This document shows positions 2,126-24,095 of a stretch of 26,364 nt of DNA, in pieces. Source of the DNA: a virus; the IMG/VR virus record IMGVR_UViG_3300031974_001096, positions 1 to 26,364 of that record; one strand, given 5' to 3'. A program made the translations under genes and the position numbers. The notes beneath the pieces are model-generated. The model saw only the letters and a list, made by a program, of their open reading frames with translations. It was not told the DNA's origin and did no database searches. Positions within the stretch are counted from its first letter, which is position 1. Each line of letters opens with the position of its first letter.

Positions 2126-2273
2126 TCCCCCAGTTTTTAGCACCAACTTTCCTGCACTTGGCAAGCGCACCAGAGGCGTAAGCCGAAGGCCACACCTTAT
2201 ACCGAGACTTCACCTTGCTATAGCAAGCGTCTTTTACGGCCCCTCCTTTCTTATACTTCTTTACGGGCTTCAT
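2106..2273 (-). CDS. 55-residue protein: KxGG tag plus 'KDACYSKVKSRYKVWPSAYASG' type domain
   Basis: Starts at the ATG at 2273-2271, which overlaps the stop of the upstream gene as ATGA. The protein begins MKPVKKYKKGGAVKDA. The rest contains 'YSKVKSRYKVWPSAYASGAL', then a CRKVGAKNWG motif, and ends SGGKKN. This core (two Cys, a WPSAYASGAL segment, a terminal NWG) is one I recall as recurrent in small proteins of marine phages and nucleocytoplasmic viruses, with unknown function. The N-terminal YKKGGAV belongs to a motif shared with several other small proteins in this window. The stop falls just after an A5 run, and the downstream DUF5872-like domain follows in the +1 frame. The two may have been, or may be expressed as, one protein. 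Confidence 0.65.
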   Translation of the reverse strand: MKPVKKYKKGGAVKDACYSKVKSRYKVWPSAYASGALAKCRKVGAKNWGSGGKKN

Positions 2274-2677
2274 ACTTCGTCAGCTGGTATCCACCCCGCT
2301 GCGTCAGCTTCGGCTTCAGTAAGCTGCTCAGAAGAAGAAGGGATGAGAGCAGCAAACGGTACGGTGCCGCCCCTGTTAGCGTCTATGTACGCCACCAGCT
2401 GATCCTTCTCCGCCTGTGGCACTTCTGGCATAAGGGCGATAAGGTTAGTTAGGTCCACGTCGTTGTGGACAGGAATCTGTTCTGTTGTTTCACCTATGAT
2501 TGCCACCTGGTCGGTGGTGGGGTGGGTGATCGTGCCGTAATAGAACCTAGTTACGTCACTACCAGACTTCACTGAGTCGGGACGTACAAGGCTCCACACT
2601 TCGGCGTTAATTGCTTCGGCGCGTTCTGCGGAAGTCATGCCCGTTACGGGCTCTACGGGGAGATATACTGTTGCCAT
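2270..2677 (-). CDS. Hypothetical phage protein, 135 residues
   Basis: An acidic protein starting MATVYLPVEPVTGMTSAERA. It is locked into the operon by overlaps at both ends: TAATG with the lectin-module gene upstream and ATGA with the small basic gene downstream. The C-terminal half has an amphipathic helix 'PEVPQAEKDQLVAYIDAN' and ends 'TEAEADAAGWIPADEV'. No membrane segment, signal peptide or catalytic motif is visible. Its position right after a fibre or adhesin gene suggests a virion accessory protein or an assembly factor for that fibre. I do not recognise the family. Confidence 0.75.
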   Translation of the reverse strand: MATVYLPVEPVTGMTSAERAEAINAEVWSLVRPDSVKSGSDVTRFYYGTITHPTTDQVAIIGETTEQIPVHNDVDLTNLIALMPEVPQAEKDQLVAYIDANRGGTVPFAALIPSSSEQLTEAEADAAGWIPADEV

Positions 2678-5181
2678 TATTGGTGAATGCTAAAGTACGA
2701 GTTTATATTGTTTTCTATTGAAGACTGATCGCCTGTGTAATCGGAGTCCCAAAGTATATATTCTTGGAAGTGATAATTAGAAATATCACCAACTCTTCTG
2801 TTTGTTAAGTATGTAGGTGTGTAAGTGGTAACGGTACTCGTTGTTGTTCCTGACTCTTGAGCGTTATTGCTTGAAACAAAAATTTCCAAGTTTGTTGCGT
2901 CTGCTGATATAAACTTGGAAACCTGACAATCTTGAGCTGGGTTAGTTACGCTATTACCATTAGCCGTACTAAAGGTAAAGTTGCCACCGCCTATAACGGA
3001 AAATGAATCGTTGCCAATATCATTTCTAAGGTATGGGAGAGGTAAAGAACTCCAGGCATAAGTGCCTCCAATTTTGTTAGCTTTTACAGCAAATACAGAC
3101 TGAATTGTATACGGTTGCGTTACAGAAACACCAGACAACGTAAATCCTACTCCAGAAGTGTTAATAGATTCGTTGTCTATAGCTGGCTTTCCGTTTATTT
3201 CGTTAATAGAGCTCCCGTCATATATCTGAGGCTGAAGGCTCTGTGTGGTCATCACTGCGTGATTCCCGTTAGTGCTTTGGTCCATCCACTGCACCACCCT
3301 TCCGTTTGCTACCCCGCAAAAGTCTATTATGGCTTGAGTGTCGAGATCTCCGTTACTGTCAAATCCAATATTGATCTCCGCATTATCAGAATCACGCCTG
3401 ATGCGCATAGCGATAACCGCCTTGTCTGAAAGCCGCCTAACGGAATAGGCTGCAGCAGCCCCAGAGTAGTCTGCTAGGAGTCCAGTGGTAGGAGCTTCAG
3501 TAGGCTGATGTATTAGGTACTCTGAGTTAATGTTAGACTCGATGCTGGCGATGTTGCCCGCGCTGCGCTGGTTGCTTGACCACACAACAATTTCTTGTAC
3601 AGTATGGGCAGCAGGGCTATTGTTTGAGCCGCCCGCAAGAATTTGCATTGATGTTCCAGCAGTGTAGCTCGTAGCAGTAGCGCTAACTGTTTCACTTTGA
3701 TTGATACGCCCAACAATGTTGCCACTACCAGCAGCGTCATAAACTGCTGTGTACAATGCTTGCGCCGCTGGAGCTGTTCCAACATCCGCATAACTGCCAC
3801 CAAAAATCCTGAAAGTCCTACCTGAAAAATATACAGCAGGCTTCAGGATTCCACTAACGCTACCCAAGATGTATTGCGTGCTTTCATTGTTGTGCGTGAA
3901 TACACTTGTTGCAGTGAAACCGTCACTAATACTATAAGACCCTGAAAAATATCCAGTTCCATTAGGGTATAAAGCAGGCTTCCCGTTCTCAGTTATTACC
4001 GCCGTGCCGTTGTAAATCTGCGGCTGATTGCCTGCCGTGCTTTGCGTAGCGTGGTTACCGTTAGTACTTTGATCCATCCACTCCACTACGTACCCGTTCG
4101 CTGTAGTGCAGAAATCAGATATGGCGGTAGTGTCTAAGCTGCCGTCAGCGTTAAAACCTATATTGATCTCCGCATTATCAGAGTCTCGCCTGATACGCAT
4201 GGCGACAACCGCCTTGTCTGAAAGGCGTCTCACAGAATATGCAGCAGCAGCACCAGAGTAGTCTGCCAAGAGGCCAGATTCTGGAGTGGTGGTAGGCTGG
4301 TATATTAGGTACTCAGAATTGATGTTGTCTTCTATTGCAGTTCGGTTGGTGCTTTGGTCAGAAGCCCACACCAAAACTTCGTGAATCGTTCCGCTGAAAA
4401 GTGGTGCGCCAGATGAACCCGCGCCGAGCTTTAAAGTGCTGTCTGTAGTGTTTAGCGTTCTACTTGATGCCGCTCCAGCCGTTGCCGCCGACCCGTCTAT
4501 AAACATGCTCGAATCGGTCACATTGGTTCCGCTCCACAAGGCCGTAGTTAGAAGGTGTTGAGTGTTGGCCGTTGTCCCGCTGAAACTTTGGTAACCACTT
4601 CCAACACGAATCCACGGTTCAAAGGTATGTTGCCACGCTTCACCCGCACCACCGCCGCCGTAGCTCATTACAGTGCTTTCCGTATTTCCGCTGATGTTGT
4701 CACATTCTGCAACTATGAAATTGGTTCGGTCTCCCGTGCCGCTAATCCCAATATTAGCAGAGCTGAACATACTGCTATTATTTGTAGCCAAGAATGACAA
4801 TCCTGGATTTCCGTTTATAGTAATGACCGACGTGCTGTTATAAATGAGAGGCTGAAACGATGCCGTGCTTTGCGTGACATGGTTTGCGTTAGATGACTGA
4901 TCATACCAGGTGACCACCCGACCGACTGTACCGTTACAGAACGTAGCCAGTGTAGCCAGATCGAGCTCACCGTTGCTGTCAAAGCCAATGTCTGACTCTT
5001 GGTTACCACCTTCCTCTCGAACCCTGATGGCAGGACCAGAGTACGAAGCAGACAGCTTTCTCAAAGAATATGCTGCCGCAGCCCCACCATAGTCATCTAT
5101 AAGGAACCCAGACAGCCCATCGCCTCCGCCAACTAGGATCGCGTAGTTTGATCCATTAAGTCCGAGTCCGCTTCCAATCAT
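2677..5181 (-). CDS. Large virion adhesin with three tandem arabinofuranosidase-type lectin modules
   Basis: An 834-residue protein made of three related modules of about 264 residues (roughly 27-300, 303-566 and 567-834). Each begins 'DYxGAAAAYSxRxLS', continues with 'IRxRxxxxxxxxDIGF/NIGF', 'LDxxxxxxFC', then 'WxDQSxNxNHxxQ' and 'PxIYN/D'. This is the pattern I associate with the ArabFuran-catal (alpha-L-arabinofuranosidase B catalytic-like, concanavalin-type) fold found in surface proteins of Bacteroidota and their phages. The second half of each module resembles a LamG-like jelly roll and ends in SIExNINS-type sequence. The likely role is glycan binding or cleavage by a tail fibre or head decoration. 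Modules two and three are almost identical at their starts, also in DNA, suggesting recent duplication. The start ATG overlaps the upstream stop (ATGA). Catalytic activity cannot be judged. Confidence 0.75.
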   Translation of the reverse strand: MIGSGLGLNGSNYAILVGGGDGLSGFLIDDYGGAAAAYSLRKLSASYSGPAIRVREEGGNQESDIGFDSNGELDLATLATFCNGTVGRVVTWYDQSSNANHVTQSTASFQPLIYNSTSVITINGNPGLSFLATNNSSMFSSANIGISGTGDRTNFIVAECDNISGNTESTVMSYGGGGAGEAWQHTFEPWIRVGSGYQSFSGTTANTQHLLTTALWSGTNVTDSSMFIDGSAATAGAASSRTLNTTDSTLKLGAGSSGAPLFSGTIHEVLVWASDQSTNRTAIEDNINSEYLIYQPTTTPESGLLADYSGAAAAYSVRRLSDKAVVAMRIRRDSDNAEINIGFNADGSLDTTAISDFCTTANGYVVEWMDQSTNGNHATQSTAGNQPQIYNGTAVITENGKPALYPNGTGYFSGSYSISDGFTATSVFTHNNESTQYILGSVSGILKPAVYFSGRTFRIFGGSYADVGTAPAAQALYTAVYDAAGSGNIVGRINQSETVSATATSYTAGTSMQILAGGSNNSPAAHTVQEIVVWSSNQRSAGNIASIESNINSEYLIHQPTEAPTTGLLADYSGAAAAYSVRRLSDKAVIAMRIRRDSDNAEINIGFDSNGDLDTQAIIDFCGVANGRVVQWMDQSTNGNHAVMTTQSLQPQIYDGSSINEINGKPAIDNESINTSGVGFTLSGVSVTQPYTIQSVFAVKANKIGGTYAWSSLPLPYLRNDIGNDSFSVIGGGNFTFSTANGNSVTNPAQDCQVSKFISADATNLEIFVSSNNAQESGTTTSTVTTYTPTYLTNRRVGDISNYHFQEYILWDSDYTGDQSSIENNINSYFSIHQ

Positions 5182-5363
5182 GAGTGACTAGCTATTTTGA
5201 ATTGTGCTTTTGCGACAGCCCCAGGGTGCGGCTTGTAGTCCCCCTCCATCAAGTAGTACCTACCAGATTCTTCCATCCAGTGATACCCTTTCGGTGGGTC
5301 TATACCAACCTTTTTGTTGAGCACCTTAAGCTTACCGCCTTTCTGGTACTTAACAGCCTTCAT
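5178..5363 (-). CDS. Small basic KxGG-motif protein, 61 residues
   Basis: Begins MKAVKYQKGGKLKVLNKK, so it carries the YxKGGKL variant of the N-terminal motif found in other small proteins here. The remainder, 'PPKGYHWMEESGRYYLMEGD' followed by a His/Pro/Ala segment, looks like a small folded aromatic-rich domain. The gene overlaps both neighbours by ATGA: its ATG with the stop of the 86-residue gene upstream, and its stop with the ATG of the lectin-module gene. I do not recognise a function. Placement among fibre genes suggests a virion component or DNA-binding head protein. Confidence 0.7.
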   Translation of the reverse strand: MKAVKYQKGGKLKVLNKKVGIDPPKGYHWMEESGRYYLMEGDYKPHPGAVAKAQFKIASHS

Positions 5364-5620
5364 GCCATATATGCGATGACTGCCCCAGCACCCAGCGTTA
5401 TACTATTCCAGCTACCATACACGGTGACTCCAGTAGGGATCGATTGAGTGGCCATGTTAGGGAATCTGTCCGTGTCTGAGGATGCGGTGGTCATGGTTGT
5501 GCTGTCAGCAAGTACCGTGACAGCCACGAAATTGTACCCATCGGTAGGGGTTGTGGCGTCAGTGGTGGTTATGACCTTGTACCCGTGCTGCCCAAAGGCT
5601 GTAAGGTTCGTATTCTTCAT
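5360..5620 (-). CDS. Small beta-rich virion-type protein, 86 residues
   Basis: A Thr/Ala-rich protein beginning MKNTNLTAFGQHGYKVITTT, with 'GYNFVAVTVLADSTTMTTAS' in the middle and 'SIPTGVTVYGSWNSITLGAG' near the C-terminus, ending VIAYMA. The alternating hydrophobic pattern and absence of charge clusters suggest a small beta-sandwich. Similar small proteins occur in marine phages next to fibre genes, in my recollection, often annotated as hypothetical structural proteins. It overlaps the downstream gene (ATGA) and the upstream coiled-coil gene, so it is part of the same transcript. The function is inferred only as virion-associated. Confidence 0.7.
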   Translation of the reverse strand: MKNTNLTAFGQHGYKVITTTDATTPTDGYNFVAVTVLADSTTMTTASSDTDRFPNMATQSIPTGVTVYGSWNSITLGAGAVIAYMA

Positions 5621-5826
5621 GTTACTTTGTTTTTAGCCAATAAGAGCTTGATTTCTTGTATGTCCTGTAAGAGCGTCTTGACGTCCTTTTTAAAGTCGCT
5701 ATTGTCGTTCTCCAAACCTTCTACCCTAGCCACGAGGCGGGCATAATCCATTTGATGTTTTATCCAGACCCCAACAAGCGATCCAGCAACAAGCAAAAAT
5801 TCAAAATGTGTTATGTTCTCAGGCAT
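5617..5826 (-). CDS. Membrane-anchored coiled-coil protein, holin-like candidate
   Basis: 69 residues if started at the ATG at 5826-5824, which forms a TGATG overlap with the upstream stop. An in-frame ATG four codons earlier (5838) is also possible. Residues 8-22 (FEFLLVAGSLVGVWI) form one hydrophobic segment. Residues 28-64 are a charged amphipathic helix with heptad-like Leu/Ile/Val spacing (ARLVARVEGLENDNSDFKKD, then VKTLLQDIQEIKLLL). One membrane helix plus a coiled coil is common for small phage holin or spanin-like proteins and for XhlA-type accessory proteins, which show the reverse order. The endolysin gene is far away (about 21 kb), so lysis is only a guess. A virion membrane-contact protein is an alternative. 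Confidence 0.6.
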   Translation of the reverse strand: MPENITHFEFLLVAGSLVGVWIKHQMDYARLVARVEGLENDNSDFKKDVKTLLQDIQEIKLLLAKNKVT

Positions 5827-6119
5827 CAGCAGTTCCATTTCCTCAGTGCAAGCGCCTTACGTGTCGGCTTGCCATTGGGCTTTCTCATAGGCCCTTTGAC
5901 ACCGCTCATTCTGGCGCAGAAGCTTTTTCTCCTCTTGGCTGCTTTGCTACCTTTCTTCAGCTTGGAAGGCTTGGTAGTGACTGCCATTTTAAGATTACTC
6001 CCCGTTTCTCTGTTGTATTTATCAACACCAGCCTGAGTCAAACCACCCTTGGGGTCTTTGTGCTTCCCCATTTTCAGTGAGACTCTTCCTCCTTTTTTGT
6101 AGGATTTACAGGCTTTCAT
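5826..6119 (-). CDS. DUF6321-like basic protein with KxGG tag
   Basis: 97 residues, very basic. It starts MKACKSYKKGGRVSLKMGKH, again with the YKKGGRV motif. It then shows 'GGLTQAGVDKYNRETGSNLK', a Lys-rich linker, and 'KRRKSFCARMSGVKGPM', ending ALRKWNC. The GGLT...KYNRETGSNLK, RRKSFCARMSG and ALRKWxC elements match what I remember as DUF6321, a small domain widespread in aquatic phages. The function is unknown, and a nucleic-acid-binding or head-internal protein is plausible given the charge. The ATG sits four bases after a TATATTTG box, so the message may be leaderless. The stop overlaps the next start (TGATG). Confidence 0.72.
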   Translation of the reverse strand: MKACKSYKKGGRVSLKMGKHKDPKGGLTQAGVDKYNRETGSNLKMAVTTKPSKLKKGSKAAKRRKSFCARMSGVKGPMRKPNGKPTRKALALRKWNC

Positions 6120-6123
6120 GTTA

Positions 6124-6131
6124 CAAATATA
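6124..6131 (-). promoter_or_regulatory. TATATTTG -7 box four bases before an ATG
   Basis: The minus strand reads TATATTTG, then TAAC, then the ATG at 6119. A -7 box here would place the transcription start at or next to the start codon. The same box-N4-ATG arrangement recurs at 19640, 24100 and 24165. Confidence 0.5.
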
Positions 6132-6161
6132 AACTACAATATAATTGGGTTTTTTGTTACA

Positions 6162-9100
6162 TCAAAGCTCGATCCAGTCTGGTGATGGGTCTATGAATAT
6201 AGTGCTGCTACCCAATCCATAACCTATAACCCTTACAAAGTCTCCAGTGCCGCTTGGTGCGGTAGAGGTTAGAACACCTTCTGCAGAAGCGCTTATGTAA
6301 AGAATGTCTCCTGCACTAAATGAAGACCAAAGGTTGGAGGTGTATATACCATAAATCAGAAGGCCATCAGATGTAGGACTCGTTCCAAGAGCAATACCGA
6401 ACAGACCTCTTGTATCTGTTTCAGTATTTGCGTCAGTAGGCTCCCATCCAGTAGAAGCATACACGTAAGTTTTTCCAGTTTGAAGTGTTCCGCTACCAAA
6501 CTTCACAATAGTACCCTCGTAACCCTGACTGTAAGACGATCCTTCAGTCTTGAAGTCAAGCTGCTGACCAATTAGATGGTTGTTTTCTATAGTCGGCTTG
6601 TTGGTTAGGTCGTTGTAATCATTAGACGTAGCAACCGCACCGAGAGTGGTAGGTGTGGCGACCCCGCTTGCGTTACCCACCCAGGCCTGACCGTTAGGTA
6701 TGTTCGGGACATCGTTGGTTCTCCCAACACCAGTAACCTTGATGGTTCCGTTGGTGTCGTGAGCCTGCATCACTATACCCAGGTTTTGAATCAGGCCTGT
6801 ACCCGTTGGCTTAGTAGCGGTAACGCCACCTGCAACAGTATCGCTGACATAGACCACGTCACCCTCAGAGAACGACGCTGTAGGGAGCGCAATGCCATTT
6901 GCCTTTCCATTAACCACGGCTAGGCCTTCAGCTCCGATTGCGATGTCATCATACAGCACCCCAATTGCGGGCATAGTAGAAGCCGAGTTTGCTTGAGCAA
7001 GACTGACTTGAGCAACGTTAGAGTTTTGGGCCGCACTGATGTAAACCACATCTCCTCTCGACATTGCAGAAGCAGTGTTATTATACACTCTTACATAAGA
7101 GTGATCTAGGTACACATTTACCCACTCCGAACTGGCAATATCGTATTCTAGAATCTGCTTGTCTGCAACCCCTGTTATTGAAACGTCAGACAGGCCTCCG
7201 ATCGGACCTGTAGCTCCTGTTGGGCCTGTAGGCCCTTCAAGACCAAAAGAGGGGTCTATGGTTACTGACACAGGTCCAGTAGGTATAGTCGAAACACCCC
7301 CGTCATGACCCAAAGAAACATTGTCTAAGGCCAAAAAGTTACCCGTGTACGAAGCCCCGCTAAAGCTATAGACTACCCTTCCAGAGTTTGTTGATATGCT
7401 TACAGAACCCTTTCTGATGTTTGATATCAGGGTTGCTATGTCTGATATACTTCCAGTTACTGCGTCTGTTGCACCGTAGTCAAGACTTAGAGTCTCGCTT
7501 ATGTATATATCCGTTACCTGGTTTGGAGTAGATGAATTCGCAAGGATCTCACCGTCGTTCAGGCTGGTCGGAACAGATCCAGTAACCCCGAAAGACAGCA
7601 TGTTTGTAGAGACTATTCCTTCGAGGAGTAGGTTTGGAGTAACACAAATTAAGGCCTCTACTTCACCTGTACCACCGCCACCATCAAGGTTTAGGGTGTT
7701 GTCAGAAGGACCAGAAATAAGCAAGCATCCACTAATAACGACAACCTGAGACGAATTGTCTGCTATAAGAGTAGAATAAGTGAATGTGGCTATTTCTGAC
7801 GCCCCAAGAGAGTCAAAAACCTCATAGCTTACAACACCTCCAGTGTTAAGATTGGAAACCCCTTGCAAGAACTGAAGTTCTTCACTGGTGAAAGTGTTAT
7901 ACGGGAACGCTATGGTCTCTATTACATTTGGGTTTACAGCGCTTAAGTTAGAAGGTGTCCCCCCGTAAAAGTTGAACTTATTCTCTACCCCGTAGGTTCC
8001 GTTCTTAATATCAAAACACAAAGTCCCCGACGGAGTTGGTCCGTCAGGACCTGTGGGTCCAGTAGCTCCAGTGCAGCAGGGGCCTGTGGGGCCTGTGGGG
8101 CCTGTGGGGCCAACGCCTCCAGTAGCGTCAGGATCGTCACAACATAGGTAGTAACAAATTACAAAGTTCGTTCCTAGGTTTTGAGGCCAAGCGTGAGTGC
8201 TATCTGTGCCACCTATGTATGTTGTAGGAACTTGATATACGTCAACACCATCTTGGGTTTGAAGCGTGTTTGAAGGAAGAGGTCCGTTTATAGTATCTGC
8301 ATCAATAGAGAACCACTCCACCCCGTAACTACCGTCAGCCCAAACCCCAGAAATAGATATGTTTATGGAAAATCCAGTCGGAAGTCCATTTACAGCAAGC
8401 TGTAACATATCGTTTGTTATGCCTCCAGACCCTATTAGCAGGTAATCAGTATCTATTACATCATAAGTATTTGGCCCCCAGAACCAGTTGTTTTGGAAAG
8501 GCTCGTATCCAGCAACAGGATATCCAAGGTTGTTAAGTTGACTCCTAAGGAAGTAGTACTGCTCACAAATGCCCCCAAACCCTCCACCTGGAGGCCCAGT
8601 AGCGCCAGGGTTTCCGCCTCCATAACCTCCGTCTGGACCGCCGCCATTTGATCCACCACCTATAGCAGGCGTAATACAAATTTTGTAGTAAGAGTCACAA
8701 TCAGCAGATGCCGTTGCGCCAGGCATAGATGTTGTTGATCCGCCCTCAATAGGTCCAACAAAGTAAAGGTTCGGGAATTTAAAAAATCCACCTGCATCAC
8801 CAGTTGCCCCAGCTGTAGTGGTGTAACTCGCGCCAGAGTATACCCATGCCCATCCGTCACCATTGCAGTCTACAGCGGTTATATATCCAGCACCCCCACC
8901 GATGGTGATAATCTCTACTATTTCAGCCGTAGAGTCTTCTTCCGTAGCTGACCCAGGATCTGGGTAAAAGTTTTGGTAGTGAATCCCGTTTAGGGCTATT
9001 ACAGAAACGTCATCAGGACCAAAGGGTGTAGTCGTTCCCTCAAGACCAACTATACCAAAAGCAGCAGCTCCGTCTCCTGCTATAGCGGTCCATATATCCT

Positions 9101-10607
9101 CTAAATCTTCCGCTGTAGACTTGTAAAAGAAGCACTCTTGACCTGGAAGCGAACCTGCGGGTCCAGTAGCTCCAGCGGGTCCAGTTGATCCTGCAGGCCC
9201 CGTAGGTCCGCCTGGAGTCCCTGGAGGGCCCTGCGGTCCAGTGGGACCTTGAGGTCCTGTCGGACCTGTGCCACCAGACACAAGCGGAGCTATACACACT
9301 CTTACTACATCCTGAGAAAACCCAGGGAATGAAGAGTTTGCGTCATTAGCAACGAGGTCTCCAAAAGTGTATGTGTAGTTACCGTCGTCAGCATTCAAAG
9401 TAGAGGTGATGCTCGTGGACACAAACGCCATATACCCACCCCCTTCTTGAATAACTTTGATGTATGCAGACCCGACAGCAAGAACAGAATCGAGTATTAG
9501 GCTATTATCTACAGAAGTGGTGTTAGTGAAGCTAGTCTGACCTCTCTGGTGCAGATATATATAGCTTGCGTCACCAAAGGAGCTACCTATTACTTCTCCC
9601 TCCCCAGTATTTTGATCGTCTCCATTTACTATAAGTGGGGTCAGGTTTATATCGTAAAAAGTGCAGACCTCACCAACATAGCTTCCTGTCGGTCCAGTGG
9701 GTCCAGTGGGTCCAGTGGGTCCCTGGTCACCTTGCGCCCCAGCAGCTCCAGTAGGTCCTGTCACTCCTGGGCGACCTACAGGTCCAGTGGGTCCCACATC
9801 ACCATCTCTTCCTGGATCTCCCGTAGGACCCGTCGGACCCCTATCTCCTTGTGGGCCGATTCCGCCTTGCGGTCCTGTCGGCCCTGGAGCAGTAGAAGCT
9901 GCTCCTGTAGGTCCTGCAGGCCCCGTAGGTCCAGCGGGGCCAGGGGCGGTAGATGCCGAACCAGTTGGTCCAGCGGGTCCAGTAGGTCCAGTAGGGCCTA
10001 TAGGTCCAGGAGCTGTAGAGTCAGCACCTGTAGGTCCAGCAGCACCTGTCGGACCTTGCGGACCCGTAGCTCCGTCTAATCCAGCAGAAAAGCAAGACCA
10101 TCCGCTACCAGTGTACACACATATTTCATCACCGATAATCCAAGCGTCTCCAGTAGCTGGATCAGCGACGGCTCCAGTGGATCCAGTAGCCCCAATAACT
10201 TCTAGACCAGTGCCTGCTGGCCCCTCAGGTCCAGTAGGTCCAGTAGGACCAGGGTCCCCGTCAAAACCTCTAGGTCCATCGGCACCATCCTGACCATCCT
10301 GACCGTCTACTCCGTCTTGACCGTCTGCACCTGGAGCTCCAGGAGCACCGTCAGCTCCAGAGGGGCCAGTAGGCCCAGCAGGCCCAGCGGGGCCAGCGGG
10401 GCCAGCAGGTCCAGCGGGACCTTGCGGGCCGAGAAGAACCCCCTCAAAGCTGCTTACATCAATGTACGTTGCTGGGTCTACAGAAACAATAGCAGAACAC
10501 AGGTCTTCCTCGATCGTTATTACGACCTGAGGGGAAGACGGACATTCAAGTTTTATTTCTATGGGGTCCGAAGAAGAAACATCTATGCAAGGGATGCAAT
10601 CTGACAT
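6162..10607 (-). CDS. Giant collagen-like modular virion protein (fibre or fibril)
   Basis: 1481 residues. The N-terminus (1-59) carries four Cys. Gly-X-Y blocks, mostly GPTGPxGP, occupy about 60-133, 179-309, 444-489, 826-858 and 1122-1139. Between them lie beta-rich modules of about 130-330 residues. Several begin with a Cys-aromatic segment (VCTFYDI, CFFYKS, CEQYYFL, LCFDIKN) and end with a VRVCIAP, YKICITP, FVICYYL or LICVTP strand. The C-terminal 340 residues hold repeats such as '[15 protein letters not shown]' and end [11 protein letters not shown]. Phage collagen-like segments form trimeric coiled stalks, so this is likely a trimeric tail or head fibre with globular domains on collagen stems. 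The ATG overlaps the upstream stop (TGATG). Which virion part carries it cannot be told. Confidence 0.8.
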
Positions 10608-10972
10608 CAGGGAAGGGTTACGTCTTCGTTTACTTTAAATGTGCCGTACAGATAAGTCTTTGTGGTGGTAAATCCAGTTGACTGAAGGTCATAGACGTAA
10701 AGACCAGAAGCCACGTCCATGGCGGTCGCAGTCTTTTGTATAGTAAGCTTACTTCCACTAAGGGCGATTTCACCACCAGAAAAGGTCAAAATAGAGGTGC
10801 CAGTAGCATTATCAGTGTCGCTTTCCCTAACCTCCATCTTCCATCCATCACTAGGAACAGTAGTCGTCCCAAAATCCAGAACCATATAAAAGGTGTCTCC
10901 CCTCCTGCATATGATATCTAGGCGGGAAGCAGTATCAAGGTTGATGGTGTTTTTAGTCGTGTTACTGCTCAT
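10607..10972 (-). CDS. Small beta-sandwich virion protein, 121 residues
   Basis: Starts [20 protein letters not shown], followed by '[20 protein letters not shown]' and '[16 protein letters not shown]', and ends with '[20 protein letters not shown]' and [13 protein letters not shown]. The RxGDTF...W.MEVR...[10 protein letters not shown]...[11 protein letters not shown] pattern resembles N-terminal attachment domains of baseplate or fibre proteins (BppU-like) and small phage proteins of the same fold. It overlaps the portal gene's last 11 bases and the collagen gene's ATG. Sitting between portal and fibre genes, it probably connects a fibre to the virion or is a minor structural protein. The assignment is by resemblance only. 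Confidence 0.6.
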
Positions 10973-13460: not shown

Positions 13461-15572
13461 TCATCTATGCCATTCTTTTGGCTTTGACTTTCTGAAAAAG
13501 CGCTTCCCTTCAAAGTTTGACTGCTTTCTTTCTTGCTTAAACTTTTGAGCCGCAAGCAGGGCCAGACCAGAACTAATAGTAAGGTCGTATTTGGTTCTGT
13601 TGTTTATCTTGTATCCTATCCAGTCTTCTAAAGTCCTGTTGAAATACATATTCCCAACCTTAGCATCATCAGCCCGAATGCCAACATGGTTGTGTATATA
13701 CGCTTCTATCGCATGAGCGTGAGCCTGGATTACGTCAACAGAGTTAGACGGGATACCCTTGGTCTTTACTTTCATGGTTGACCCTGGAGGGGTAAGGTGT
13801 TTAGGCCTATCCATGACATAGCCATCCCAGCCTCGCTTCTCAAAGTACCTTACTATCCCATACTTGTTGTTCTCGATCAATAGTGGGTACCCGTAGAATA
13901 CAGCAGCCATAAGTACATCTTCGTAAAATATACTGGCTAGATCTGGCCTGGACGCATACTCAAGCACAAACATGTTACTTGGGGTATTATCGTCCATATT
14001 GAACTTATTGTAGAGGTGCAAGGCCCCCTTTGACCCCCTACCGTCTACTGTCTCATCAAGGTCGTAAGAGTCGACACCACCGCACCCGAAGTCAGCAAAT
14101 GGAGCTACGCGCTTCCCTTTGTGTTCAGCGATTATGTTTCTTCTGTCTTTAGGCGGCATCCAAGTCACCCTGAACCTCCCCCTGGGGTCTGGAGAGAAGA
14201 TTACCTCCTTGTCTTTCACCTTCCAGATGAAGTTGCCTGTCACGACTGGGTCTGGATACATGTTGTTGTTCCAGTCTATCTGCTGATAGATCTTTCCAAC
14301 GTTGAATATACTCCCTTCGATGCTGTCACGAAACGCCTCGTCTTCAGTTAGCGGGAACTGCCTTATAACTTCGTTGAGCTCAGAAGGGTCGTGTTTCAAG
14401 GACTTCCGTTCGTTTTCGAGATATTCTCTACTTCCTTGGTCTATAAGCTCTCCGTCGATACCTTCTACGGGTTTTGTCGGCTTTTCTGTTACGGGGTTAC
14501 CGTACTTATCAAAAAAGCCCTCAAGAGCATGATCAGCAGGAATAAAGAGACGGTACAAGCCAGAACGAGTTCTGCCATTGTCATTTCTCTCAGTGGGGTC
14601 GGAGTCCTCCCAAAGGTTTTTGTATTCTTCGCCTCCTTTGTCCATTGGATTGACCGTACTCCCAACAAGAGCTTTGCCAACCACTTTTTTACCGACGATA
14701 AGACAAGTTCTTTCAATTCTCCAGGCTTCTTTAATGTCTACTGGCTTCTCCCACTTCCCAGCCTCATCAAGATAGAGGATATGGAGTTTCTCTCCGTCAT
14801 AGGCGTTGTTGGTGGTATTCTTCCAGTTAATGATTGTGTTGAGCGCGTCACCCTTCTGTGACGTCTTATTCTTCTTGGTGATTCGTTTTGATGGTTCCCG
14901 AAAAGCGAGTTCCATACGTGGGTTCGTCGTTCCATCCTGAATGGGTTTAAAGAAGAATGGGTAACTCCGAAACATCGGAATCACCTTCTTCATGAAAATG
15001 TTCTCCTGAGCATCTTTACCAGTCTTTGACTGTATCCCCAACAGCTTATCTTTAACTTGTGTAGCTTCGTCAACAAGTACAGAAGCACAGATGTTAGTGT
15101 AGCCACTACGGCGACACTTAGTATAAAGCTGACCGATACAACGGCTATCAGCTTCGCACGCAGCCATGTGGAGAAAGATCTCACGCTGGAACGCAAGATA
15201 CGAAGGATATCCGATATCGATCTTACTCCATTGGAGAAACATGTAGTGTCTCCCCGTAATATACGTAGGCACACCATTATTGTAAAACCAAATACCGTTG
15301 CGCCTGCGTTCAAACTCTTGCTCGATAAAAGGAGAAAAGGTCCGCCGAAATTCGGCTGGCTTCTCGAACCACTCATCCATACTTCTAATCCGCGACAGTT
15401 CTTGTGGCACATCGGTGCGGCGCCACATCTGCATCTGTTTAGGTAGGTCGTGGAAGAGAATTTCCGATTTTTTTGGCTTCTTCGGAAGAGCAATGTCAAG
15501 ATCATAGATCTGAATAACCTCCCCAGGCTCACTTCCGCTGACCAACCGAATAGCTTCATCGGACTTGCCCAT
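13461..15572 (-). CDS. terL: Terminase large subunit (TerL)
   Basis: 703 residues from the ATG at 15572-15570 (MGKSDEAIRLVSG). A start at 15641 would lie 86 bases inside the upstream gene and is less likely. The protein is the packaging motor: an N-terminal ATPase that pumps DNA through the portal and a C-terminal nuclease that cuts the concatemer. The ATPase shows a non-canonical Walker A region, KCRRSGYTN, near residues 152-160, and a clear Walker B, LHILYLDEAG, near 263-272. The nuclease has FADFGCGGVDSYD near 492-504, the usual RNase H-like GxDxYD metal site. The gene lies just upstream of portal, the standard order, and overlaps the small zinc-ribbon gene before it by 17 bases. Confidence 0.9.
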   Translation of the reverse strand: MGKSDEAIRLVSGSEPGEVIQIYDLDIALPKKPKKSEILFHDLPKQMQMWRRTDVPQELSRIRSMDEWFEKPAEFRRTFSPFIEQEFERRRNGIWFYNNGVPTYITGRHYMFLQWSKIDIGYPSYLAFQREIFLHMAACEADSRCIGQLYTKCRRSGYTNICASVLVDEATQVKDKLLGIQSKTGKDAQENIFMKKVIPMFRSYPFFFKPIQDGTTNPRMELAFREPSKRITKKNKTSQKGDALNTIINWKNTTNNAYDGEKLHILYLDEAGKWEKPVDIKEAWRIERTCLIVGKKVVGKALVGSTVNPMDKGGEEYKNLWEDSDPTERNDNGRTRSGLYRLFIPADHALEGFFDKYGNPVTEKPTKPVEGIDGELIDQGSREYLENERKSLKHDPSELNEVIRQFPLTEDEAFRDSIEGSIFNVGKIYQQIDWNNNMYPDPVVTGNFIWKVKDKEVIFSPDPRGRFRVTWMPPKDRRNIIAEHKGKRVAPFADFGCGGVDSYDLDETVDGRGSKGALHLYNKFNMDDNTPSNMFVLEYASRPDLASIFYEDVLMAAVFYGYPLLIENNKYGIVRYFEKRGWDGYVMDRPKHLTPPGSTMKVKTKGIPSNSVDVIQAHAHAIEAYIHNHVGIRADDAKVGNMYFNRTLEDWIGYKINNRTKYDLTISSGLALLAAQKFKQERKQSNFEGKRFFRKSKPKEWHR

Positions 15573-15738
15573 ATCGGTTACTTTTGAAAGACGGGACCCC
15601 GACCTTTTTCTCAGCCAACTCCATGTACTTCCCGCATTCACACTTCACGTCGTGGCGAACCTGACCGTCAATAACCTTAATCGACACGCTCCCCGTGTGA
15701 TCGGTGGTCTTACCACAATCGCACTTATACTTAGACAT
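15556..15738 (-). CDS. Small zinc-ribbon-like protein, 60 residues
   Basis: Starts MSKYKCDCGKTTDHTGSVSI. It has two CxC knuckles, C6-x-C8 and C33-x-C35 (VKCECGKYMELAEKK), which together could bind one zinc ion. The rest is basic and short. It precedes and overlaps the TerL start. Small zinc proteins before terminase occur in other phages and may help in DNA recognition or late transcription, but nothing here shows which. Very low similarity can be expected in searches because of its size. Confidence 0.65.
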   Translation of the reverse strand: MSKYKCDCGKTTDHTGSVSIKVIDGQVRHDVKCECGKYMELAEKKVGVPSFKSNRYGQVR

Positions 15739-17516: not shown

Positions 17517-17590
17517 TTGGGGCGGCGGGACTCGAACCCGCAACCTTCTGTGTATAAGACAGATGCTCTAACCAGCTGAGCTACGCCCCA
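17517..17590 (-). tRNA. tRNA-Ile(UAU)
   Basis: A 74-base tRNA on the minus strand. The acceptor TGGGGCG pairs with CGCCCCA, the D arm is GCTC...GAGC, and the anticodon stem TCTGT/ACAGA holds the loop CTTATAC with anticodon UAU (reads AUA). The T arm is GCGGG-TTCGAGT-CCCGC and the discriminator is A. CCA is not encoded. Bacteria normally read AUA with a lysidine-modified CAU tRNA, so a true UAU isoleucine tRNA is uncommon in hosts but does occur in phages. Confidence 0.92.
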
Positions 17591-17628
17591 GTTGGTCCAC
17601 CTCAAATGCGTAGGAGGTCGTCTGTCGA

Positions 17629-17841
17629 TTATTTACTTGATCTTCGCTTCGGCCTGTTGTTAGCCCTGTTTACAGAGGCTTTGATGAACCTTTTGATTCT
17701 ACCCCCTTCATGAGCTGCATCCAGACCATCTCCATTCCCATAGGTCCCTGCTCTCCTGTTGTGTCTGTTGAGCTCTGCGCGGTACCTTTTGGCTGCCTTG
17801 GTCTTGCCGTACTTTCTGTATTCCTTTTTATAGTCCCTCAT
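17629..17841 (-). CDS. Small very basic phage protein, 70 residues
   Basis: Starts MRDYKKEYRKYGKTKAAKRY and continues with RAELNRHNRRAGTYGNGDGL, then DAAHEGGRIKRFIKAS and a tail NRANNRPKRRSSK. The NRRAGTYGNGDGxDxAHxGG...NR pattern recurs, in my memory, in small proteins of many marine phages. It looks loosely like a degenerate HNH or zinc-less nucleic-acid-binding fold (the A-H/E-G-G segment), but the full HNH residues are not present. It overlaps the MazG-like gene upstream by 14 bases. RNA or DNA binding is likely from charge, the function unknown. Confidence 0.7.
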   Translation of the reverse strand: MRDYKKEYRKYGKTKAAKRYRAELNRHNRRAGTYGNGDGLDAAHEGGRIKRFIKASVNRANNRPKRRSSK

Positions 17842-18163: not shown

Positions 18164-18225
18164 CGTTAAAATAAATATGATTGTTGTTTGTGCTGTCTTG
18201 AGTCCACGTCAAGTTCGGAGTTCGA

Positions 18226-18549
18226 TCACTTACTGAACTTCTCTGCAAACCCGCCTGAGTAGTCTTTGTCTTCTTCGACCTGTCCATTTTCTTGTAGCTC
18301 TTTCACCATAGTCTCCAGCGACTGCCTTTCACGAAGCAGCTCTTTGCAGTCTATGGCTGTTTGTTTCACTGATTGAAGTTCGGCTTTTCTTGCGCTTCCA
18401 TTGACCTCTTGGTCCACTGGCTTTTTAACTTCTTCGATCATGTTATCAATGGCGATAGCCATCGCATCCATGAGCTTCACTGCTGCGGCAAGGGTATTAA
18501 AGTTTGTAGAGGAGTTCTGTGACCGCGACCCTGTAGTATTCTTTTTCAT
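18226..18549 (-). CDS. Helical phage protein, 107 residues (possible small terminase or adaptor)
   Basis: Started at the ATG at 18549-18547 (MKKNTTGSRSQNSSTNFNTL). The frame extends to 18648, but that part lies inside the GroES-like gene and reads like a shadow. The protein is mostly helical: 'AAAVKLMDAMAIAIDNMIEE', then 'KAELQSVKQTAIDCKELLRE' and 'RQSLETMVKELQENGQVEED', ending GGFAEKFSK. Small helical proteins of this size can be terminase small subunits, but no helix-turn-helix is obvious and the gene is about 2.7 kb from TerL, so this is only one option. It overlaps the co-chaperonin gene by about 53 bases. Confidence 0.6.
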   Translation of the reverse strand: MKKNTTGSRSQNSSTNFNTLAAAVKLMDAMAIAIDNMIEEVKKPVDQEVNGSARKAELQSVKQTAIDCKELLRERQSLETMVKELQENGQVEEDKDYSGGFAEKFSK

Positions 18550-19081
18550 CAATTTTAATTCTGTAGTCCCTGTTCTTTTTGAAGCCAACCACGTCACCAT
18601 CGGATACTCCGAGGTCATCAAGCTCTTCGGATGGAAAGGATACCACACCTGTCGTTACTGGGTCCTCTTTCAGTTTGACGACTTCTATCGTGCCTTCTTC
18701 AGGTCCTTGATCATTTTTATCATGAGGCTCCAGCAGACACCAACCCTTGATTGACTGAATCTCTCCCGTATCCTTGCTCTTGTAGGCAATCGCTTGATTG
18801 TACGCCGCATGAATTGGGTTATAGATGACCATATACCACTTATCCAACTCGCTAATTGGCATACCACCGTCCACGACCACGTGGTGGTGAAAGTACAAAG
18901 TATCGCCAACCTTAACTGGAGTCTCCCTATTGCCTGGGACAGCCAGGACTTCACCTTCTGTAGTTCTGTGATCAAACTCATTGAATCTTGTGTCTATGTA
19001 CAGCTCTAACCCGCTGTCGGTTTTCATAGTGTCGTTGGTGGTGTTTTGTATCTTTACAATGAAGTTATTTATGGATTTCAT
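18497..19081 (-). CDS. GroES-like co-chaperonin, apparently double-domain
   Basis: 194 residues. Residues 5-70 align by eye with GroES: NFIVKI for the first strand, a loop, 'RTTEGEVLAVPGNRETPVKV', then GDTLYFHHHVV. Residues 130-194 look like a second Cpn10 half: EGTIEVVKL, PVTTGVVSFPSEE, then 'DGDVVGFKKNRDYRIKIDEK' and EYYRVAVTELLYKL, the last resembling the C-terminal GroES strand that ends DILAIV. A Trp/Tyr/His-rich insertion (80-125) separates them. A GroES caps the GroEL folding chamber. Phage versions such as T4 gp31 adapt the host chaperonin to fold the capsid protein. At twice the GroES length, it may be a fused or highly elaborated form. The start ATG lies three bases after the stop of the 78-residue gene. 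Confidence 0.65.
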   Translation of the reverse strand: MKSINNFIVKIQNTTNDTMKTDSGLELYIDTRFNEFDHRTTEGEVLAVPGNRETPVKVGDTLYFHHHVVVDGGMPISELDKWYMVIYNPIHAAYNQAIAYKSKDTGEIQSIKGWCLLEPHDKNDQGPEEGTIEVVKLKEDPVTTGVVSFPSEELDDLGVSDGDVVGFKKNRDYRIKIDEKEYYRVAVTELLYKL

Positions 19082-19084
19082 ATA

Positions 19085-19635: not shown

Positions 19636-19639
19636 AATT

Positions 19640-19647
19640 CAAAGATA
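19640..19647 (-). promoter_or_regulatory. TATCTTTG -7 box four bases before an ATG
   Basis: The minus strand reads TATCTTTG, then AATT, then the ATG at 19635. It matches TAnnTTTG with the same N4 spacing as at 6124, 24100 and 24165. It overlaps the 19-base divergent gap shared with the plus-strand regulator. Confidence 0.5.
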
Positions 19648-19654
19648 AGTATTA

Positions 19655-20831: not shown

Positions 20832-21295
20832 CACCAAACAGAATAAATAACCTTTCCGTTTTCATCCCTGGATGCTTTATGCACTCTGTTCCTGTTCTCC
20901 CTGTCAGAAACGTATGACACATGCACCCACGCAGGGGAGAGGTCGGTCCCTTGCTCCCATATCAACTGATCGAAATCCAGGTTTTCTTTTATGTACCTGA
21001 ATATATCAGCGTTGGATATTTCCCCGTATACGTCTGCATCCAGGTCGAGAGCCTGTCCCCGCATATGCTGAGATGTCACCGACCCGCCAATCTTGCTGTT
21101 CAACTTAGCCGATCTATATCCAGACGAGACATATATCGGCACTCCGAAGTGGTCTCGTACTGGTTGGAAGATATGCTGCGCAATCTCCCTAAGATTGGCG
21201 ATCTCCTTTTTGTTGGGCTCGTTTTTCAGCCCTAGGCGTGCTGCCGTTATACTTTTTGTACACTCTTTTAGAGTCAGGTTTTTGGACAGTTTCAT
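20831..21295 (-). CDS. M15-family D-Ala-D-Ala carboxypeptidase, endolysin
   Basis: 154 residues, complete peptidase M15A (VanY-like) fold. 'VPIYVSSGYRSAKLNSKIGG' is the SGYRS signature. SQHMRGQALDLD supplies H77 and D84, and PAWVHVSY supplies H125, the three zinc ligands. The segment 'DADVYGEISNADIFRYIKEN' is typical of the M15_3 group. It cleaves peptidoglycan cross-links or stems. In phages such a lone domain is normally the endolysin. There is no signal peptide, so a holin is needed. The gene overlaps the glycosyltransferase downstream (TGATG), and 50 bases separate it from the upstream basic-protein gene. Confidence 0.88.
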   Translation of the reverse strand: MKLSKNLTLKECTKSITAARLGLKNEPNKKEIANLREIAQHIFQPVRDHFGVPIYVSSGYRSAKLNSKIGGSVTSQHMRGQALDLDADVYGEISNADIFRYIKENLDFDQLIWEQGTDLSPAWVHVSYVSDRENRNRVHKASRDENGKVIYSVW

Positions 21296-21345
21296 TCCTC
21301 TTCTTGTTGAAGTCTTTTAATTTCATTCGTGGGTTAAAGTAACCC

Positions 21346-21993
21346 TTATTTCCCATTTCGACCCTGTGCGGCTATGATGTCTAGAGCAATCATAGCATCA
21401 AGCGCAGACTTTGTAGGGTACTTTTTTACCTCTCTACCCCCTTCACGAGACTTAGTTACACGCTTGGTGAGCTCACCTTCAGGTCCATACTTGGACTTAG
21501 TCTTGTACCTTTCTGTAAAAACTCCTGGAAATCTTCTCTGTAACCAGTTTAAGTTTTCTCCACCAGTCTCTACGGTCTTTTTTCTTCCTCCTTCAGGAGT
21601 CATCTTAGTAAAACCTTTGTACTTATTAAAGGTTTTTTCGTAGTCGTCTCTGTCTAAGTTACGAGTTAGATTATAATGTCTGTCAAATTCGTTGTTTTTA
21701 TAGACGTCTCTTACCCCATGAAATTTTTGGTCGATGTAGCGCCTGCCTGTAGGAAGCCCTATGATCTTGCGAGGTTTACCTTTAGGAGATAACCTGACCA
21801 ACTGAAGAATTTCTTTCAATCCAGCGTTGTGACCTTTAACAAAACCTTGCTGTCGAGTATCCCCATCAATTCTATTATAAGGCGCTACAGTTGGTGGGTA
21901 ATAACTTTTAAACGCTCTTTCTGTTGGGAATCCGCCAGGTGCGTTAGAAGATAAGAATCCACCAGGTCGCCGCCGTTTAGGGTCACCGTTCAT
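21346..21993 (-). CDS. Basic phage protein, 215 residues, unknown
   Basis: Starts MNGDPKRRRPGGFLSSNAPG, a Pro/Gly/Arg-rich, probably flexible N-terminus. The middle (FVKGHNAGLKEILQLVRLSP, then IIGLPTGRRYIDQKFHGVRD) may fold, followed by a basic region with many KxGG-like and RxxGG spots (GRKKTVETGGENLNWLQRRF) and a C-terminal helix with SALDAMIALDIIAAQGRNGK. Highly basic, no membrane segment. It overlaps the upstream EF-hand-type gene by ATGA. It belongs to a block of five basic genes read together and may be a head-internal or DNA-condensing protein. That is inference from charge. Confidence 0.65.
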   Translation of the reverse strand: MNGDPKRRRPGGFLSSNAPGGFPTERAFKSYYPPTVAPYNRIDGDTRQQGFVKGHNAGLKEILQLVRLSPKGKPRKIIGLPTGRRYIDQKFHGVRDVYKNNEFDRHYNLTRNLDRDDYEKTFNKYKGFTKMTPEGGRKKTVETGGENLNWLQRRFPGVFTERYKTKSKYGPEGELTKRVTKSREGGREVKKYPTKSALDAMIALDIIAAQGRNGK

Positions 21994-22583
21994 CGCCTAA
22001 CTCCTCTACCCATTAGAATGTCGGCCATTGTGACCTTCCCGTCTTTGTTCAGGTCAGGGAACTTACCGCCTTTACGGTAGATCCTACCTCCGCCCATCAT
22101 CTTTCTACCAGGGGCTGGCTGGCCTCCTTGACCGCGCATCTGGCCGAGCTTCTCCATAAGGTCCTCCATCGGGGAGGCCCCAGGACCGCCAAGGTCTTTT
22201 GTGGCTTCGTAACCGCGATCTTGAGCGTCATACGTCTTTTCATCGAGAGACCACTCACCGCTTTCGTTCTTTACGATCGGGAAGTCCTCGTCAGGGAGGA
22301 ACATGTTCCCCTCTTCGTCCTGACCTTGGGCGTACTCATTCCAGTTTCCGTAGACTTTGAACGAATTCTCATCGCGGCTCCATTCTTCGTCGCTAGAGTC
22401 GAAGTCAAGATCTTCGTTCTGCTTGTTGAACCAAACGTACTCCCTCATGCTCCCGTCAGGAGCTTGTTCTTGTCGGACGGTAGAGGCGTATTGACCGATC
22501 ATGTTATCAGCATCGGTGCCGCCTCCTTGCTTCTTCTCCATCATTTGTCTGATCATGTCAGACATGGTGCTATTGTTCATCAT
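21990..22583 (-). CDS. Acidic phage protein with C-terminal dockerin-like EF-hand
   Basis: 197 residues. The N-terminus MMNNSTMSDMIRQMMEKKQG is nearly identical to that of the next gene upstream. The middle (ASTVRQ...YVWFNKQNEDLDFDSSDEEW...FKVYGNWNEYAQG) aligns with the same neighbour. From about 160 the two part: this protein has a Gly/Met-rich linker, the motif GGGRIYRKGGKFPD, then DLNKDGKVTMADILMGRG. The last is an EF-hand loop of dockerin type (D177, N179, D181, G182, V184, D188) and likely binds calcium. The RIYRKGGKF stretch just before it is a KxGG-type motif at the C-terminal side rather than the N-terminus. Function unknown, overlaps both neighbours by ATGA. Confidence 0.7.
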   Translation of the reverse strand: MMNNSTMSDMIRQMMEKKQGGGTDADNMIGQYASTVRQEQAPDGSMREYVWFNKQNEDLDFDSSDEEWSRDENSFKVYGNWNEYAQGQDEEGNMFLPDEDFPIVKNESGEWSLDEKTYDAQDRGYEATKDLGGPGASPMEDLMEKLGQMRGQGGQPAPGRKMMGGGRIYRKGGKFPDLNKDGKVTMADILMGRGVRR

Positions 22584-23086
22584 TCGTAAGGTCTATCTGG
22601 GTTATATCGCTGAAGTCTATCGAGCAGGGTTCTAATTCTGGATTGATCAGGTCTCTCTTGCTTGAGTCCCATGCCTCTATTGGCGGCGTACTCCTTAGAC
22701 TCTCGGAACTGTTCGTATTGAAAACCGTCGCCGCCCATCGCGTTCATCTGAACAACATCGTCGATCTCATAATCTCCTTGGCTGTTTCTTCTAATCGCGT
22801 ATGGTGCATCGCGCAGGAACTCCCCAGTCACTCCATACTTAGAGAAATCCCCGTAAACCTTAACGGCGCCCTTTTGCATCCAGGCACTGTCGGGCGCCTC
22901 CCACGGAAGGTCTTCTCGCTGATCTTGGTCGTACCAAACGAAAGTTTTTCCGTCCCGATCCCTTCGAATCGTAGAAGCCAAATTGCCATCGAGAACCTTT
23001 TCAGGCATGTCTCCAGACCTGTCTGGCTTCTTCTCCTTGTCCATCATCTGCCTGATCATGTCAGATGTGGTGCTATTGTTCATCAT
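22580..23086 (-). CDS. Paralogue of the EF-hand protein, without the EF-hand, 168 residues
   Basis: Starts MMNNSTTSDMIRQMMDKEKK, then 'ASTIRRDRDGKTFVWYDQDQ', REDLPWEAPDSAWMQKGA and VKVYGDFSKYGVTG. The shared order of N-terminal helix, AST-I/V-R, F/YVW-Y/F, and F/VKVYG shows a tandem duplication with the downstream gene, whereas the C-terminal half here (YAIRRNSQGDYEIDDVVQMN, then a basic tail ending RYNPDRPYE) lacks the calcium loop. The first 16 codons are nearly identical in DNA (positions 23039-23086 against 22536-22583). Virion or assembly role by context only. Confidence 0.68.
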   Translation of the reverse strand: MMNNSTTSDMIRQMMDKEKKPDRSGDMPEKVLDGNLASTIRRDRDGKTFVWYDQDQREDLPWEAPDSAWMQKGAVKVYGDFSKYGVTGEFLRDAPYAIRRNSQGDYEIDDVVQMNAMGGDGFQYEQFRESKEYAANRGMGLKQERPDQSRIRTLLDRLQRYNPDRPYE

Positions 23087-23394
23087 TAGTACTTCGGGAT
23101 TCGGTATTTAGTTTTCTTCTTGTCCTTCTTCACGAGCGCCTCTCCGCTGCTGTAATCCATCTTCTTCTTGTCGCTGATCTTCTTGATCGGGGTGTCTTTA
23201 CTCCCTCTAGCTTTGAATTTGGTTACAGACGTGTTTCCTCGCTTACGCTTGGTGATCAGCTTGCCTTCTACAGGGTAGGTCTCACGATCCACCTCTACAT
23301 CAAACTGACCCTTCTCTACGTACCTTCTATTATCCTGTCGCTTTTGCTTCCTGGATACCTTCCCCCCGTCTTTGTAGGACTTCTTAGCTCTCAT
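23086..23394 (-). CDS. Basic KxGG-tag protein, 102 residues
   Basis: Starts MRAKKSYKDGGKVSRKQKRQ, the YKDGGKV form of the shared N-terminal motif. The rest is Lys/Arg/Asp-rich, with 'VEVDRETYPVEGKLITKRKR' that could form a short beta hairpin, then 'GSKDTPIKKISDKKKMDYSS', and ends KTKYRIPKY. No known domain. It overlaps the upstream gene by ATGA and the downstream paralogue by TAATG. It may bind DNA or RNA, or be carried in the capsid. Confidence 0.65.
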   Translation of the reverse strand: MRAKKSYKDGGKVSRKQKRQDNRRYVEKGQFDVEVDRETYPVEGKLITKRKRGNTSVTKFKARGSKDTPIKKISDKKKMDYSSGEALVKKDKKKTKYRIPKY

Positions 23395-24095
23395 GCCCTC
23401 CTACCGCTTCTCCTAGCTTGACGCCTTTCTCTGCGGACGTCCTTCCTAGTAGCTCCTTGAGCGACAACCTTACCGCCGTCCTTCATCTCCTTATTGGGCT
23501 CTTTGTAGTGCTTACCCATACCACCCTTAATAGCCCTGTGTGCTGCGGCGCCACTAATCTTTCTGGTCTTTTCCTTGGTCTTACCGCCCATCGTCCTCTT
23601 CTTTTTCGTTACGGTTCCAGAACCCTCATCGTAAGTGGTGGTTTTGGACTTGTAAGTGTTGTTTTTGGCGCCACCACGGACCTTGTCCTTTGTCAAAGAC
23701 CTTGTGTTACCCGCAAGGCCTTCTTGCTGATAAGTCTTGGATTTGTTTGTGTTTCTTTTGTCAATGCGCTTACCGTAAATCTTACCGCCGTTTTCCATCC
23801 TTACGATCGTATCGGCAGCTCCCTTATTCCTAAGCTTGGTTACAGTACCGTCCTTTTTGGTTACGGTCTTTGACTTCCCAGTAGCGCTTCTTGTCGTTTC
23901 TACCGTTCGGCCAAACCTCTTCTTGTTCTTAACAGTTGCGTCCTTTCCTTCTCCGAAGGGGTTAGATACGTATCTCTTTGTTTTGTTCTGACCGAGAAGA
24001 CCTCCAGACTTGGTTTTACCTGAGGCGTCTACAGTTTTTTCCCTCCTGGAAAGAGGTGAGGATGATTTGTATCTGAGTTTCTTGAGTGCTTTCAT
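23391..24095 (-). CDS. Very basic Lys/Thr/Gly-rich protein, 234 residues
   Basis: Started at the ATG at 24095-24093 (MKALKKLRYKSSSPLSRREK). An upstream frame to 24113 lacks a good start and would run through the -7 box. The protein is low-complexity and strongly basic, with repeated KTKSGG, TVTKKDGTVTK, RMENGGKIYGKR and MKDGGKVVAQ-type segments, and it ends in an Arg run (RKDVRRERRQARRSGRRA). GGKI and GGKV are internal copies of the KxGG theme. Such composition fits a nucleic-acid-condensing or head-internal protein. It is the first substantial gene of the minus-strand block and has a TATATTTG box four bases before its ATG. Confidence 0.68.
   Translation of the reverse strand: MKALKKLRYKSSSPLSRREKTVDASGKTKSGGLLGQNKTKRYVSNPFGEGKDATVKNKKRFGRTVETTRSATGKSKTVTKKDGTVTKLRNKGAADTIVRMENGGKIYGKRIDKRNTNKSKTYQQEGLAGNTRSLTKDKVRGGAKNNTYKSKTTTYDEGSGTVTKKKRTMGGKTKEKTRKISGAAAHRAIKGGMGKHYKEPNKEMKDGGKVVAQGATRKDVRRERRQARRSGRRA

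Follow-up and report, generated by a model that had tools for sequence, protein, structure and literature searches.

The window analyzed here, i.e., the whole stretch of 26,364 bp from virus record IMGVR_UViG_3300031974_001096, carries nearly all of its genes on the minus strand. Its nearest named relatives are Bacteroidota podoviruses, namely Cellulophaga phages phi38:1 and phi40:1, the Flavobacterium elemo phages and Maribacter phage Panino. The terminase of the window is ~41% identical to those of the elemo phages and Panino and 48% identical to that of the uncultured MW202828, and relatives closer than the named podoviruses were recovered only as metagenomic contigs. In the upstream part of the window, a GroES-like protein and an endolysin are encoded along with a cluster of basic proteins. 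The following features are relevant to the analysis:

775-1839, minus strand: acidic scaffold-like protein of 354 aa, a putative scaffold by its position and acidity
1871-2170, minus strand: untagged neighbor with a DUF5872 (PF19197) body, profile positions 48-111 only
2106-2273, minus strand: tagged protein of 55 aa, KVWPSAYASG domain, PHROG 727 and 38880
2235-2273, minus strand: N-terminal tag MKPVKKYKKGGAV on the 55-aa protein
2677-5181: second fiber gene
5178-5363, minus strand: tagged protein of 61 aa, body predicted to be a small beta domain
5328-5363, minus strand: N-terminal tag MKAVKYQKGGKL on the 61-aa protein
5826-6119, minus strand: tagged protein of 97 aa, DUF6321 (PF19846), E 7.7e-26
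6081-6119, minus strand: N-terminal tag MKACKSYKKGGRV on the 97-aa protein
6162-10607: collagen-like fiber of 1481 aa with GPTGPTGP repeats
10962-13439, minus strand: portal protein, PHROG 6547, used as landmark
13461-15641, minus strand: terminase large subunit, PHROG 6681, used as landmark
17629-17841, minus strand: untagged basic protein of 70 aa, phrog_6437
21990-22583, minus strand: protein of 197 aa with a C-terminal tag and a dockerin-like EF-hand loop (PDLNKDGKVTMADILMGRGV)
22059-22079, minus strand: internal/C-terminal tag YRKGGKF at residue 169 of the 197-aa protein
22580-23086, minus strand: tandem paralog of the 197-aa protein, without the C-terminal tag and the EF-hand tail
23086-23394, minus strand: tagged basic protein of 102 aa with a lineage-specific body
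23356-23394, minus strand: N-terminal tag MRAKKSYKDGGKV on the 102-aa protein
23391-24095, minus strand: very basic protein of 234 aa with two M..GG variants of the tag
23466-23486, minus strand: internal variant MKDGGKV at residue 204 of the 234-aa protein
23778-23798, minus strand: internal variant MENGGKI at residue 100 of the 234-aa protein

Tagged proteins of the window and their bodies

All six proteins named by a preliminary description of this DNA were found with the starts assigned to them and on the minus strand. Four of them feature Y-x-x-G-G-x-[V/L] within residues 6-13, and the proposal of a common N-terminal pattern was borne out by shuffles preserving each protein's own composition. 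In its strict form (Y..GG.[VILMF]), the motif occurs four times within the first 15 residues of the window proteins compared to 0.0275 expected copies, a number reached by none of 2000 shuffles, and five times in the 31 curated window proteins as a whole compared to 0.72 after shuffling, with one of 2000 shuffles reaching five. The same theme had also been reported inside the 234-aa protein, where both copies are indeed present but weaker, with M replacing Y at the first position; homologs of this protein bear Y..GG copies.

Likewise, the bodies behind the tag proved as unrelated as described, comprising DUF6321, the KVWPSAYASG domain, the 61-aa beta domain and lineage-specific basic proteins. 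The 97-aa protein matches DUF6321 with 91 bits (curated cut-off 28.5), and the untagged neighbor at 1871-2170, whose true start by homology is probably a GTG near 2125, matches DUF5872 with 47.9 bits (curated cut-off 27.5). Homologs of the 102-aa protein keep the body without the tag. AlphaFold modeled residues 11-60 of the 61-aa protein confidently, with a mean pLDDT of 57 for tag residues 1-10; in the 97-aa protein, the corresponding mean is 45, to which thin alignment cover over the tag may contribute, compared to 85-91 for the body. These models predict a disordered tag on folded bodies. Fold searches with the 61-aa and DUF6321 models revealed no convincing match, and neither the tag nor DUF6321 matched any PDB entry by sequence.

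Further observations concern the gene neighborhood. The adjacent bodies at 2106-2273 and 1871-2170 correspond to two parts of DUF5872, the first of which was matched weakly and through its homolog KVFPSAY from the second phage lineage treated below (positions 11-40 in the N-terminal half of the profile, below the cut-off); by sequence, the pair likely reflects a gene split or fusion. The 197-aa protein and its tandem paralog both begin with MMNNSTxSDMIRQMM and form a natural pair with and without the tag. The EF-hand loop of the former scored 17.2 bits against the Dockerin/EF-hand profile (PF00404), below the curated cut-off of 22.9. A second portable module containing an EF-hand-like loop, FPDLTGDGxVTxADILKGRGV, is found on different small proteins in several phage lineages, often beside a Y/F-x-x-GG tag and in either order (window 21990-22060; L317, 20690-20956; L237, 2001-2270). 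GroES-like co-chaperonin genes are located near packaging or head genes in the window (18497-19081) and in two other loci (L283, 4207-4596; L317, 23415-23882). The collagen-like fiber contains insert domains, and its length varies among relatives. The 70-aa protein belongs to a family also occurring in Flavobacterium phage elemo. Two contigs, G009 (L161-L164) and G010 (L165-L168), contain two terminase/portal sets each, one G010 terminase being partial, which suggests duplicated packaging modules or misassembly.

Recurrence of the tag in two phage lineages

The scan of related phages proposed in the preliminary description revealed a clear excess over shuffled proteins. Among 148 loci fetched via terminase and portal, with one random member taken per protein family, the motif occurred 49 times (8 expected) and 15.3 times within the first 30 residues (0.58 expected). 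In ten large contigs, the excess was restricted to proteins of at most 300 aa (32 tags vs. 3.4 expected); larger proteins showed none (6 vs. 7.5), which excludes a large-protein background as the source. Five isolate genomes of distant relatives featured no motif excess (4 vs. 3.8 expected). Tagged genes are mainly arranged in two late blocks, one upstream of the endolysin and the other between portal and scaffold/MCP, the MCP gene following the homologs of the scaffold-like gene 775-1839 in related contigs. The median net charge per residue is +0.148 for tagged small proteins vs. 0.000 for untagged ones. Moreover, the motif is found internally, near C-termini and in tandem, with copies spaced 8-11 residues apart, and some copies lie in low-complexity stretches, e.g., MKSKGYKKGGKVSTKGYKKGGKV.

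Most genomes of this lineage with at least two of three bodies have every body tagged; G019 and its close relative L139 feature no tagged body, and G008 (L046) is mixed. The DUF6321 protein of G005 is tagged and uses a GTG start, and some homologs of the 61-aa protein have an eroded tag. The only families present in all tag-positive large contigs and missing from G019 are an endolysin and one small unknown protein, and this comparison therefore provides no receptor candidate.

The tag is conserved as a peptide and not as DNA, since codons change synonymously around fixed residues. The Gly-Gly pairs of the four N-terminal tags are encoded by GGA GGG, GGC GGT, GGA GGA, and GGG GGG. The residue at +6, two places after Gly-Gly, lay outside the motif selection of the homologs compared; it is always Leu in 15 tagged homologs, encoded by five codons, and always Val in 10 others, encoded by four codons. 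A Shine-Dalgarno or other DNA-level origin (AAAGGAGG-like coding) is ruled out by the free variation of the Gly-Gly codons.

A DNA pattern for YKKGGKV matches many unrelated aquatic phage contigs and led to a second lineage with a PHROG 38 terminase and a PHROG 371 major head protein, neither of which has detectable similarity to its counterpart in the lineage of the window. Here, N-termini of the types MRRYYKKGGSV, MRRYYKSGGGI, MRTYYAKGGRV, and MRRYYKSGGKV precede KVFPSAY, YPSAYAN, DUF5872, DUF6321, and KACE-GKEK bodies, including the DUF5872 body left untagged in the window (MRRYYKSGGGIRKTEKG...). The tagged block is located shortly after the MCP gene and ahead of downstream head/tail genes. 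In 80 loci fetched by the capsid protein instead of the tag, thus removing selection on the latter, the strict motif occurred 37 times within the first 25 residues compared to 1.2 expected copies, on at least four different bodies (DUF6321, PSAYA, DUF5872, and KACE-GKEK). The earlier view that different bodies share one tag thus receives strong support from both lineages and holds more widely than first described. The same bodies exist in both states, e.g., MRTYYKSGGKI-RKTEKGASLKRWF and MAV-RKTEKGASLKRWF, and judging from such sequences the tag behaves like an N-terminal cassette that can be exchanged. The tag state agrees in 22 of 35 lineage-2 body pairs vs. 16.4 expected (reached in 40 of 5000 permutations, with relatedness uncontrolled), which is only suggestive of a concerted tag state among the bodies of a genome. 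Besides, small aquatic-phage proteins (L197-L316) often feature the conserved C-terminal peptide S-A-S-x-R-A-D-G-I/C-A-x-R-G-K-T-R-G after YKKGGKV, possibly a second tag.

The same bodies are known from other marine phages, in most cases untagged. In the T7-like pelagiphages Eistla and HTVC142P and in cyanophage P-SCSP2, they are placed between the scaffold and MCP genes; in Pelagibacter phage HTVC027P, they are flanked by terminase and capsid genes and lie immediately upstream of GroES; in T4-like cyanophages, they are embedded in longer proteins. HTVC027P additionally encodes a small protein bearing YKVGGRV and YKKGGSV. As untagged bodies are found in several relatives as well as in many phages of the T7-like and T4-like types, the tag is not needed for the general role of the bodies. 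With regard to the virion, the GenBank record of the distant relative phi40:1 lists gp069 and gp080, both small, basic, untagged and late, as virion proteins identified by MS/MS, and the 70-aa protein of the window resembles gp080 when compared by eye. A protein with the KVWPSAY body is assigned to T4-GC119 and named structural in the GenBank record of S-B68, and Sullivan et al. (PMC3037559) describe T4-GC119 as hypothetical. A search of the open-access literature revealed no virion proteomics of any tagged protein, no mention of the motif and nothing on DUF6321 or DUF5872 beyond one passing mention of DUF5872.

Proposed head loading and competing explanations

The favored reading, held with slightly less than even confidence, is that the tag represents a short linear motif which loads small basic late proteins into the assembling head or anchors them within it. 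The peptide Y-x-x-G-G-x-[V/L/M] would act as a recognition motif within a flexible extension, which is located at the N-terminus of the smallest proteins and internally or C-terminally in longer ones. The Tyr, the Gly-Gly turn and the next hydrophobic residue would be bound by a head component, either the scaffold, the major capsid protein or a protein of the internal core. The differing folded bodies could subsequently exert their functions within the head or once injected, e.g., by neutralizing DNA or by counter-defense as with T4 internal proteins. Procapsid loading agrees with the location of the tagged genes next to those for scaffold and capsid, with the basic charge and flexible N-terminus of the proteins and with the MS-detected proteins of phi40:1. 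Directly observed were the conservation of the peptide, its excess over chance, its late head-proximal position, its exchange between bodies, its recurrence in an unrelated lineage and its low predicted order; the virion location of the tagged proteins, the nature of the receptor and the functions of the bodies are inferred. Nevertheless, short K/G-rich peptides could serve many purposes.

One such purpose would be that of a general sticky or nucleic acid-binding element, providing charge and flexibility for the coating of DNA or RNA or for condensates, wherever it is located. The basic nature of the tagged proteins is compatible with this, as are the tandem copies at 8-11 residues and the low-complexity stretches. 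Still, K/G richness alone would not fix Y-x-x-GG-x-V, composition-preserving shuffles fail to reproduce the motif, and the Tyr, the Gly-Gly spacing and the +6 hydrophobic residue are held while codons change. This explanation appears rather unlikely. Even less probable is a hitch-hiking origin, in which recombination copied N-termini from one small gene to its neighbor, or translation initiation caused them to be retained, with little function of their own. The tag is exactly an N-terminal cassette, it is worn in some homologs, and the N-termini of different bodies are slightly more alike within a genome (0.523) than between genomes (0.484). However, synonymous changes around a fixed peptide argue against recent DNA copying as well as against a role at the level of the mRNA, copies in internal or C-terminal positions do not fit an effect at the start codon, and the tag recurs in two unrelated lineages.

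Docking to tail, fibers or host-surface components instead of the head is considered very unlikely: the tagged genes of the window do flank both fiber genes (6162-10607 and 2677-5181), but the lineage-2 block lies shortly after the MCP gene, and in T7-like phages the bodies are encoded between scaffold and MCP. The lowest probability is assigned to a processing signal at which the maturing head would have its proteins cleaved behind Gly-Gly. Cleavage at this site had been envisaged in the preliminary description and is not supported by the present data. Cuts at Gly-Gly are known from some viruses and leader peptides. Nevertheless, conservation extends beyond it to residue +6, and copies also lie internally, in tandem and near C-termini. 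Peptidase_S78, CLP_protease and Peptidase_C39 were not detected in ten contigs of 53-72 kb (completeness not known), with positive controls for all three, in the case of C39 in eight genomes. Searches for S77 (T4 gp21) and for Adenain/Ulp-like (C48) proteases were uninformative, as their controls gave no signal. Apart from these explanations, mimicry of the GroES mobile loop (GG-I-V-L), conceivable in view of the GroES genes nearby, was set aside: instead of a hydrophobic residue, K/R/S/T/A is usually found at +5, and tagless relatives encode GroES, too.

Within the head-loading reading, the tag might further represent a portable virion address code, i.e., an exchangeable peptide by which aquatic tailed phages of two or more unrelated groups mark a changing set of small proteins for head packaging without a maturation protease. 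This broader proposal is tentative and somewhat doubtful. If the motif is an address for packaging, a simple sequence rule would predict which of the many small unknown proteins in aquatic phages are carried by the virion, and such proteins may be among the first to enter the host, as the capsid-targeting sequence (CTS) predicts for T4 internal proteins. Moreover, cargo could be loaded into phage heads by means of a small tag that possibly stays uncleaved.

Comparison with known systems

Several known systems share single features with the tag. Double-glycine (C39) leaders are likewise N-terminal extensions containing Gly-Gly; in contrast, the tag is not only N-terminal, its Gly-Gly does not end a leader and is followed by a conserved V/L, and no C39 peptidase was detected in the ten contigs. 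The aquatic-phage families DUF6321 (PF19846), DUF5872 (PF19197), and the PHROG 727/3477/38880 polyproteins contain the bodies of the window, but no description of a shared exchangeable tag was found for them, and most members outside the two lineages are untagged. Encapsulin cargo-loading peptides are short, flexible, attached to unrelated cargo and recognized by an HK97-fold shell. The tag resembles them as a short, probably flexible peptide on unrelated proteins; unlike encapsulin cargo, its bearers are phage proteins with no known shell partner.

The CTS of T4 is removed by the prohead protease, whereas here no S78 or ClpP-like protease was detected in the ten contigs, no sign of cleavage was seen, and the motif is also internal, tandem and C-terminal. 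Membership in this class is not claimed, because the virion location is putative and proteolytic removal is not supported. The internal proteins of T-even phages are diverse, with the CTS as their only common part (PMC3012670). Here as well, a short N-terminal peptide is common to diverse small proteins, and in the favored reading of head loading it would, by analogy, work like the CTS of T4.
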